64,000 nucleotides of DNA from Halogeometricum sp. S1BR25-6. GTDB lineage: Archaea; Halobacteriota; Halobacteria; Halobacteriales; Haloferacaceae. The stretch spans positions 434,001 through 498,000 of the forward strand of contig NZ_JAMQOP010000002.1 in the NCBI RefSeq assembly GCF_031624495.1. The letters run 5' to 3'. Shown here in pieces: positions 49,062 through 50,828 of this stretch. Position 1 is the first letter of the stretch. Every line of letters starts with the position of its first letter. A program made the position numbers and the translations under genes. The notes below the pieces were generated by a model. The model was not told where the DNA came from. It searched no databases and saw only the letters and a program-made list of their open reading frames with translations.

Positions 49062-50828
49062 TCACACGCTGCCGTCGACCGCTCCCGCCGGGTGTTCGGC
49101 GGCGAACTCGAAGCGGGCGCCGCCGGTCTCGCTCTCGGTCAGCGTCACCGACCAGCCGTGGGCCTCGGCGATGCGCTTCACGATGGCGAGACCGAACCCG
49201 GTGCCGTCGGCGACGGAGGAGTGGCCGGCCTCGAAGACGGTCTCGCGCTCGGACTCGGAGATTCCGGGACCGTCGTCCTCGACGTAGAATCCCCCGTCGG
49301 TCCGCCCGACGGTGACCGTGAGGGTGTGGGTGTCGTCGTCGGTGGAGCCGTGCTCCACACTGTCGTCGGGCGTCGCCCGACTGTTCGTGGAACTGTGTTC
49401 CACACTGTCTCCGGGAGCGGAGCGACCGGAGGCCTGTCGAGCACCGTGCTCGACAGCGTTCCGAAACAGGTTCTCGAACAGGGCGCGCAGTCGTCCCGGG
49501 TCGGCGGGAACGGTCGCGTCGCCCGTTTCGACGGCGAGCGTCGCCCCGTGGGTCGTCGTGCTCCGCCACGCCGCGTCTACCACGTCGGCGATGCGCGTCG
49601 AAGTGAGGTCGTCGACCACCGTCCCCTGTCGCGCCAACGCCAGCACGTCCTCGATGAGTTCGTCCATCCGTCCGTGAGCGTCCTCGATGCGGTGGAGGTA
49701 CGACCGGGCCGTTTCGTCGTCGACCGCCTCCCCGAGGAGTTCGAGGTAGCCCTGCGCGACGTTCAACGGCGAACGCAGGTCGTGGCTGACGACGTCCGCG
49801 AACTCCGACAGCCGCTCGTTCTGCCGTTCGAGCCGTCGTCTGTCGGCCTTCCGGTCGGAGATGTCGATGGAGAAGCCGACCAGTCCGACCACTTCCCCGT
49901 CGGCGTCGCGCCACGGTACCTTCGAGGTGAGCACCCAGTCGCCGGTGACGGTGCCGTCGGCCTCCCCGTGCCGTTCGAGCAGCGACTGCATCGAGAACGT
50001 CGTGTCCGCGGGGACGATGGGTTCCTCCTGGTCGAACAGCGGTTGGCCCGTCTCCATGATCCGAAGGTCGTCCTCGTACGTCCCCCGCGACGTCTCGTCG
50101 GGGACGACGTCGTAGTCGGTCTTTCCGAGGAAGCGGTCGGGGTCGCCGACGTACGCCTCGCTCACCCGGATGTGCTTCGCTTCGCGGTCCTTCACGTACA
50201 GGTGCGCCGGCACCGTCTCGAAGATGGCGTTCAGCAGGCCGCGCTCCCGCGAAAGGTCCGCGGCGAGTCGCTCCCGCTCCGACCGAAGACGCGCGGCCTC
50301 CGAGCGCGCCACCGCGCTCCGAACGCGGGCGTCGAGGACGGCGGGGTCGGCCGCGTTCGCCGCCGGGACGAACTCCGCGGCGCCGGCCTCGAACGCGTCG
50401 GCGGCGTCCGCGGCGTCGCCTCCGACGAGGACGACGGGCGCGTCGGCCGGGAGGCGCCCGAGCGTGTCGAATGCGGAGGCGTCGAGCGGACCGGGCGACC
50501 CGGGCGCGGACGAAGCGTCGGCGTGCGCGACGACGCAGTCGAACGCGCCGTCTTCGAGTCGCTCGCCGAGCGGTTCGGCGTCGGCGGCGGTCGGCCCCGT
50601 CCCCGGCCCCGCCGCCGCGTCCGCCGTCGTCTCCGTCACCGTGAATCCGAGCGTCCGAAGGGCGTCGGCCGTCTCGTCCGCGCCGTTCCCGCGAGGCGGA
50701 CCGGCGCGCGCGTCCTGGAGGGCGACGACGAGGACGGCGGGCGAATCCGGCGCCTCCGGTGTCCCTTCTCCACCGTCTGTCCGCGATTCGCCGCGCTCGG
50801 GTCCCAACACAATCTGTTCGACCGACAT
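49062..50828 (-). CDS. PAS sensor histidine kinase with degenerate N-terminal receiver-like domain
   Basis: A 588 aa cytoplasmic kinase with no membrane helix. Residues ~20-175 have an alternating alpha/beta receiver-like pattern (FDCVVAHADASS; APVVLVGGDAADAADAF) without a confident phospho-Asp. A PAS domain (VPAHLYVKDREAKHIRVSEA; VVGLVGFSIDISDRKA) covers ~210-335. HisKA: SHDLRSPLNVAQGY (~358). ATPase: N-box ENLFRNAVEHG (~450), G1 VEDDGPGI (~518), G2 GTGFGLAIVKRIAEAHGWSV (~548). A 39-residue insert directly after the N-box repeats VEH three times on palindromic DNA. No response regulator is adjacent. Confidence 0.9.
   Translation of the reverse strand: MSVEQIVLGPERGESRTDGGEGTPEAPDSPAVLVVALQDARAGPPRGNGADETADALRTLGFTVTETTADAAAGPGTGPTAADAEPLGERLEDGAFDCVVAHADASSAPGSPGPLDASAFDTLGRLPADAPVVLVGGDAADAADAFEAGAAEFVPAANAADPAVLDARVRSAVARSEAARLRSERERLAADLSRERGLLNAIFETVPAHLYVKDREAKHIRVSEAYVGDPDRFLGKTDYDVVPDETSRGTYEDDLRIMETGQPLFDQEEPIVPADTTFSMQSLLERHGEADGTVTGDWVLTSKVPWRDADGEVVGLVGFSIDISDRKADRRRLERQNERLSEFADVVSHDLRSPLNVAQGYLELLGEAVDDETARSYLHRIEDAHGRMDELIEDVLALARQGTVVDDLTSTRIADVVDAAWRSTTTHGATLAVETGDATVPADPGRLRALFENLFRNAVEHGARQASGRSAPGDSVEHSSTNSRATPDDSVEHGSTDDDTHTLTVTVGRTDGGFYVEDDGPGISESERETVFEAGHSSVADGTGFGLAIVKRIAEAHGWSVTLTESETGGARFEFAAEHPAGAVDGSV
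49342..49456. repeat. Palindromic in-frame repeats in the histidine kinase N-box
   Basis: Four tight palindromes with 3-base loops: 49342-49358 (gtggagc/gctccac, loop cgt), 49365-49381 (gtcgggc/gcccgac, loop gtc), 49387-49403 (gtggaac/gttccac, loop tgt) and 49434-49456 (ctgtcgagca/tgctcgacag, loop ccg); a weaker one is at 49409-49422. Three of them start on the codons VEH of the N-box, giving VEHGARQASG, VEHSSTNSRA and VEHGSTDDD in the protein. Units are about 45-51 bases and keep frame. Confidence 0.75.

Follow-up and report, generated by a model that had tools for sequence, protein, structure and literature searches.

Tandem palindromic units at the N-box of a haloarchaeal histidine kinase probably belong to a dispersed family of transposase-less mini-elements

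The window, by which we mean the whole 64,000-nucleotide stretch of Halogeometricum sp. S1BR25-6 that was analysed, contains a histidine kinase gene whose N-box runs directly into a tandem array of short palindromes:

49062..50828, minus strand: host gene, a PAS-type sensor histidine kinase of 588 aa, identified by Pfam domains and fold match
49443..49475, minus strand: N-box, ENLFRNAVEHG, recognised from the sequence; its VEH codons double as the opening arm of hairpin 1 of unit 1
49341..49454, minus strand: whole array, codons 459-496, two full units plus a third VEH hairpin, 114 bp
49404..49454, minus strand: unit 1, 51 bp, VEHGARQASGRSAPGDS, which recurs in paralogues L024, L034 and L040
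49436..49454, minus strand: hairpin 1 of unit 1, GTCGAGCACGGTGCTCGAC, 8-bp arms and a 3-nt loop
49409..49431, minus strand: hairpin 2 of unit 1, CTCCGGTCGCTCCGCTCCCGGAG, 6-bp arms and an 11-nt loop, matching covariance model R1 (see below)
49359..49403, minus strand: unit 2, 45 bp, VEHSSTNSRATPDDS
49387..49403, minus strand: hairpin 1 of unit 2, GTGGAACACAGTTCCAC, 7-bp arms and a 3-nt loop
49365..49381, minus strand: hairpin 2 of unit 2, GTCGGGCGACGCCCGAC, 7-bp arms and a 3-nt loop
49342..49358, minus strand: hairpin 1 of the terminal partial unit, GTGGAGCACGGCTCCAC, 7-bp arms and a 3-nt loop

Pfam assigns PAS_4 to residues 203-327, HisKA to residues 340-401 (E 1.6e-16) and HATPase_c to residues 443-576 (E 1.4e-16), and Foldseek matches the fold to HK853 and other kinase cores. 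With a HisKA domain and a HATPase_c domain that has N, G1 and G2 boxes, the gene product is a sensor histidine kinase. The N-box is intact despite the insert: its residues N119, N123, E126 and H127 (alignment A3) are invariant among the aligned kinases, as are the D-G-G and G-G residues. The protein reads ENLFRNA-VEHGARQASGRSAPGDS-VEHSSTNSRATPDDS-VEHGST-DDDTHTLTVTVG across this region.

Five short palindromes tile the 114 bp from 49341 to 49454, two hairpins to each full unit. When synonymous codons were shuffled with the peptide held fixed, the observed palindromicity was reached in 0 of 20000 shuffles; the summed length of arms with 3-nt loops is 29 bp in the real sequence, against a mean of 2 and a maximum of 22 in the shuffles. 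Neither the peptide nor codon bias therefore accounts for the palindromes of the array. The original prediction had seen three VEH copies here, the first being that of the N-box itself, each opening a palindrome with a 3-nt loop, in units of about 45-51 bases that keep the frame. All of this is borne out, with arms of 8, 7 and 7 bp and units of exactly 51 and 45 bp. Two details need adjusting: the array spans 38 residues from the first VEH, rather than 39, and, although the codons between VEH copies do form palindromes as predicted, hairpin 2 of unit 1 has a loop of 11 nt, not 3.

The prediction had also mentioned VEHGST-like repeats in other haloarchaeal histidine kinases, and had proposed on that basis that the site is a hot spot. 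Both ideas proved correct: 154 of 391 haloarchaeal genomes have an N-box followed by two or more units, representing 44 of 86 genera (one genome per species throughout, with no strain-level event seen), and a reversed control pattern gave no matches in the same 391 Halobacteria genomes. When 84,980 species genomes were scanned with a fixed gap, at least 116 stretches were returned; among the 80 listed, 79 are haloarchaeal, including Halorubrum, Haloferax, Haloarcula, Halosimplex, Halorussus, Haloplanus and others, and the remaining one is from Acidimicrobiia and lies outside any kinase. Two loci beyond those 80, L178 and L186, are likewise non-kinase. The 45-bp VEH pattern was not found in 2.9 million viral contigs, which gives no sign that this form is carried by viruses. 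In the genome that holds the window, all four exact VEH palindromes lie in kinase N-boxes, and 13 of the 16 near-exact ones lie within or adjoining HATPase domains, the other three being in unrelated contexts; across four further genomes, 29 of the 30 exact matches fetched are kinase N-boxes. By these counts the VEH form is restricted to the kinase N-box, and the same position is occupied in different kinase subfamilies (for example L066, L067, L069 and L149). Among 175 kinases, VEH-to-VEH spacings are 45 bp (166 cases), 48 bp (47) and 51 bp (18), plus doubles; the 45-bp share is inflated because most loci were fetched with a pattern needing two VEH 45 bp apart. In a variable-gap search free of this bias, all spacings listed are multiples of three, and inserts are made of whole units of 45, 48 or 51 bp, a multiplicity that the prediction had put forward for checking. 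Restriction to one protein position, constant preservation of the frame and presence in a large share of genera would suit a protein-level adaptation, in which a functional peptide would tune the turnover of ATP or the binding of partners and the palindromes would be incidental.

The way in which the stems vary argues strongly against such an adaptation. Homologous arrays are palindromic at the DNA level, as the prediction had suggested checking, and their silent sites covary. Hairpin 1 follows the consensus GTN GAR CAY RGY TCN AC. Its pairs 3-15 and 6-12 each link two silent third codon positions, and yet the bases match in 270 of 308 cases (Fisher odds ratio 178) and 275 of 308 cases (odds ratio 131), respectively. 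The corresponding p-values ignore shared ancestry, and the argument leans on the silent sites and on the number of different compensated states instead. Inner units are paired most often (75/82 for each silent pair) and the final VEH of an array least often (53/74 and 58/74), which would fit decay of terminal VEH copies. Within the 45-mers, hairpin 2 has seven pairs that are 94% Watson-Crick and form 23 different perfect stems, with all four pair types at pair 28-34 and with coupled amino acid changes, and in the 48-bp type a stem of the form CCTxyz...z'y'x'AGG varies freely around a TCGCAGGCTC-like loop. The peptide itself is poorly conserved: 154 distinct 45-mers hold 124 different 9-residue strings, a further point against selection on the protein.

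Compensated stems within an mRNA could also mean that the hairpins act in the transcript, through stability, translation pausing or protein binding. Selection on RNA should tolerate G-U, however, and mispairs over the hairpins counted show no wobble preference, with 21 G-T against 36 A-C. Because silent sites covary and A-C mispairs are at least as common as G-T, the pairing constraint acts on DNA, and not on protein or mRNA. The near-perfect covariation of two silent codon positions is thus an unusually clean readout of a DNA-level force, separate from protein and RNA selection; template switching and selection for a DNA hairpin are candidates for that force.

An AlphaFold2 model (35 homologues, mean pLDDT 85) rendered the kinase core well and most of the array with low confidence (10-residue blocks at 52-58, about 50-60 pLDDT). 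The modelled array sits between the N-box helix, which is a few residues longer, and the next strand. The ATP lid of these kinases is the segment between the G1 and G2 boxes. The prediction of an expansion at an ATP-binding surface is only partly upheld: the array follows the ATP-binding N-box directly, but the site is the flexible loop that leads from the N-box helix into the following strand, and not the ATP lid. At the protein level, the model is most simply read as a hydrophilic, disordered loop that the kinase tolerates, and activity is probably affected mildly, if at all. Predicted disorder is likewise hard to square with a peptide that tunes the enzyme.

Arrays turn over fast, and units are shared between paralogues. 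Paralogues with the 51-bp unit in the window's own genome share exact runs of 33-56 bp within their inserts, the longest of these (L024/L035, about 56 bp) being approximate because one junction codon was omitted from the calculation, and their flanks are 68-79% identical. Unit order differs among these paralogues, L040 carrying the shared unit second rather than first. The number of VEH copies differs in 17 of 23 near-orthologous pairs whose flanks are both 80% identical or more. The window kinase and the corresponding gene of G359, a genome of the same genus, have flanks that are 84% and 88% identical and no unit in common, and the related kinases L117, L190 and L212 have arrays with 2, 3 and 6 VEH. 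Such differences in sequence and number between near-orthologues also count against a protein-level adaptation, and we regard that explanation as extremely unlikely. No filled/empty pair with defined end points or a target duplication was found for the N-box, where arrays are too divergent. Pairs with one similar and one dissimilar flank, the pattern of interest for domain shuffling with breakpoints in the array, appear to be largely artefacts of the motif used for the downstream boundary.

Several other features of the arrays were observed. Adjacent units in the 175 kinases avoid the same silent arm type (position 3 is identical in 62 of 239 neighbouring pairs, against 114 expected, sd 7.5), and units two apart agree in 52 of 87 cases, giving an alternating pattern; perhaps identical neighbouring units are lost through recombination or cross-pairing. 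An array in Halarchaeum rubridurum (L105, 2287-2550) departs from the usual alternation, with six VEH and several near-identical units of GPQQEAADS type. L143 and L175 have flanks that are 99% identical and many differences inside the array, and the palindrome of the second unit has decayed in one of the two, which suggests locally raised mutation there.

Whereas the original prediction had treated the palindromic units as a kinase peculiarity, relatives of hairpin 2 of unit 1 lie between genes and within unrelated genes. Hairpin 2 of the 51-bp unit (24 nt, at most 2 mismatches) was found in 34 of 391 genomes, mostly outside kinases. Dispersed copies consist of a variable, self-complementary hairpin 1, usually a GAGC linker, and then hairpin 2, and the GAGC linker and a GAC-GCC tail are common to the dispersed and kinase units. 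Many of them are embedded in the long open reading frames of unrelated proteins, where they are often read in the opposite direction, as VSGSxATGGSSD..SDG. Copies outside genes, or antisense to them, are a further argument against an element that works in the mRNA, and we judge that explanation very unlikely.

We built a covariance model, R1, from 25 non-N-box copies. It finds unit 1 of the window at 49404-49442 (41.4 bits, 2.8e-8), and this unit has the family layout of a hairpin, about 5 nt ending in GAGC, a second hairpin and GAC; unit 2 has the two-hairpin layout but no R1 match. With a threshold of E<=1e-4, R1 has matches in 46 of the 59 haloarchaeal genomes sampled. At E<=1, G275 has 56 matches and G162 has 112, of which many seem to lie between genes, and R1 also detects the N-box 48-bp units of G275 (about 1e-4). 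Two kinases, L080 and L104, hold a dispersed-type, non-VEH element within the N-box array. The commonest 45-bp kinase unit has GTCGGAC..GTCCGAC as its hairpin 2; its place in the dispersed family is suggested by mixed arrays and by the shared layout and linker, and not by a match to R1. A generic scan for any two adjacent hairpins over 0.9 Mb proved too noisy, with 333 hits against 66 in codon-block shuffles, and most of the leftovers are unrelated. Some dispersed elements in G162 and G275 are clustered within a few hundred bases.

The clearest case outside kinases is trpA. G134 and G195 have a 17-residue (51-bp) in-frame insert directly after the first strand (PYLAAGD) of tryptophan synthase alpha (L328 and L327), and the insert is absent from four congeners and one outgroup, making a clean filled/empty site. 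In hairpin 1, the copies in G134 and G195 differ at one base pair, with the change on one arm compensated on the other. Copying of target DNA as the source of hairpin 1 could be rejected in the case of trpA, as the arm sequence is missing from the empty site. A Y1 transposase was also considered as the mover and was rejected by its absence for G162, a genome with about 100 element copies and no Y1 transposase (PF01797); in G000 and G275, which have one Y1 gene each, no R1 element lies within 1.5 kb of it.

These observations bear on whether the arrays arose locally. N-box codons could have seeded a palindrome by template switching, with tandem slippage and gene conversion between kinase paralogues doing the remainder and the dispersed GC-rich hairpins being unrelated. 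Native N-box codons are indeed contained in hairpin 1, the VEH form is confined to N-boxes, and exchange between paralogues would suffice to explain the shared units. Yet a model built from copies outside N-boxes matches kinase units, dispersed-type elements without VEH sit within N-box arrays, linker and tail are common to both sets, and trpA, a gene without VEH, has gained an insert of the same 51-bp length. A purely local origin therefore seems doubtful to us. We consider it likely that the insert consists of tandem copies of a mobile mini-element, bipartite, palindromic and without a transposase, for which the N-box is a hot spot.

In this mini-element, a linker of about 5 nt (usually ..GAGC) separates hairpin 1 from hairpin 2, after which comes GAC-GCC or similar, and lengths of 45, 48 or 51 bp keep it in frame within genes. 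Hairpin 1 uses the N-box's own codons (GTN GAR CAY GG). Every kinase N-box would then be homologous to the ends of every unit, and this homology is probably what makes the N-box a hot spot. Units could thus spread, duplicate and swap among the many paralogous kinases of a cell by slippage, unequal crossing-over or gene conversion. Upkeep of the arms is the least certain step: hairpin-primed template switching may copy one arm onto the other or, alternatively, the folded single strand may be recognised by a putative mobilising enzyme. A stronger proposal, which we think improbable, is that a haloarchaea-specific DNA-hairpin system keeps the arrays palindromic and moves units among N-boxes, with selection acting on the DNA and not merely mutation bias. 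If this were true, the arrays would be recombination sites that diversify or rewire a cell's sensor kinases, forming a contingency or shuffling locus.

The elements occur in most of the 59 haloarchaeal genomes sampled and, in about half the genera, are focused on one spot of one enzyme family. Haloferax species are among the carriers and offer a genetically tractable case for how short palindromes arise, stay perfect and copy between loci; the arrays also bear on how far an enzyme tolerates repeated insertions beside an ATP-binding motif. In the open-access literature, we found no report of this haloarchaeal family, of the kinase repeats and their hot spot, or of the SGSEATGG insertions, and the elements appear to be a family of very small mobile DNAs, so far undescribed, that provides proteins with spare loops. 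In-gene palindromic mini-elements (Rickettsia palindromic elements, RPEs, and PARCELs), dispersed REPs and haloarchaeal PATEs are known already (PMC3119063, PMC2996958, PMC3733652).

Comparison with these systems brings out both likenesses and differences. PATEs include 52-bp terminal-only IS605 remnants of Haloquadratum, and, like the elements described here, are haloarchaeal and transposase-free, with a length of about 50 bp when terminal-only and two near-terminal palindromes (PMC3119063). That paper describes neither an in-gene hot spot at the N-box nor free covariation of stems for PATEs, in a comparison of descriptions rather than of sequences. REPs, REPINs and BIMEs are short palindromes, often doublets, found between and sometimes inside genes; an unpaired GTAG or CGTC tag marks REPs, and those with GTAG accompany RAYT transposases (PMC3733652, PMC3116915). 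The haloarchaeal elements are similarly short, palindromic and dispersed between and inside genes, but their stems vary freely and G162 lacks a Y1 transposase despite its roughly 100 copies. Many dispersed copies begin with CGTC, although these bases are paired within hairpin 1. Most known small palindromic elements within protein genes come from Rickettsia and Mollicutes. RPEs are small (about 100-150 bp), mobile, bacterial elements that occur in frame in unrelated protein genes and encode tolerated peptides. The haloarchaeal element likewise lies in frame in unrelated genes, with occupied and empty orthologues (trpA). It is set apart from RPEs by its length of 45-51 bp, by having two separate hairpins and tandem arrays at one hot spot, and by its occurrence in haloarchaea. 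PARCELs share with it tandem in-frame coding repeats, dyad symmetry and spread within genomes, but they encode a 25-residue amphipathic motif in membrane-targeted proteins, whereas the haloarchaeal units encode 15-17 variable, hydrophilic residues inside a kinase domain.
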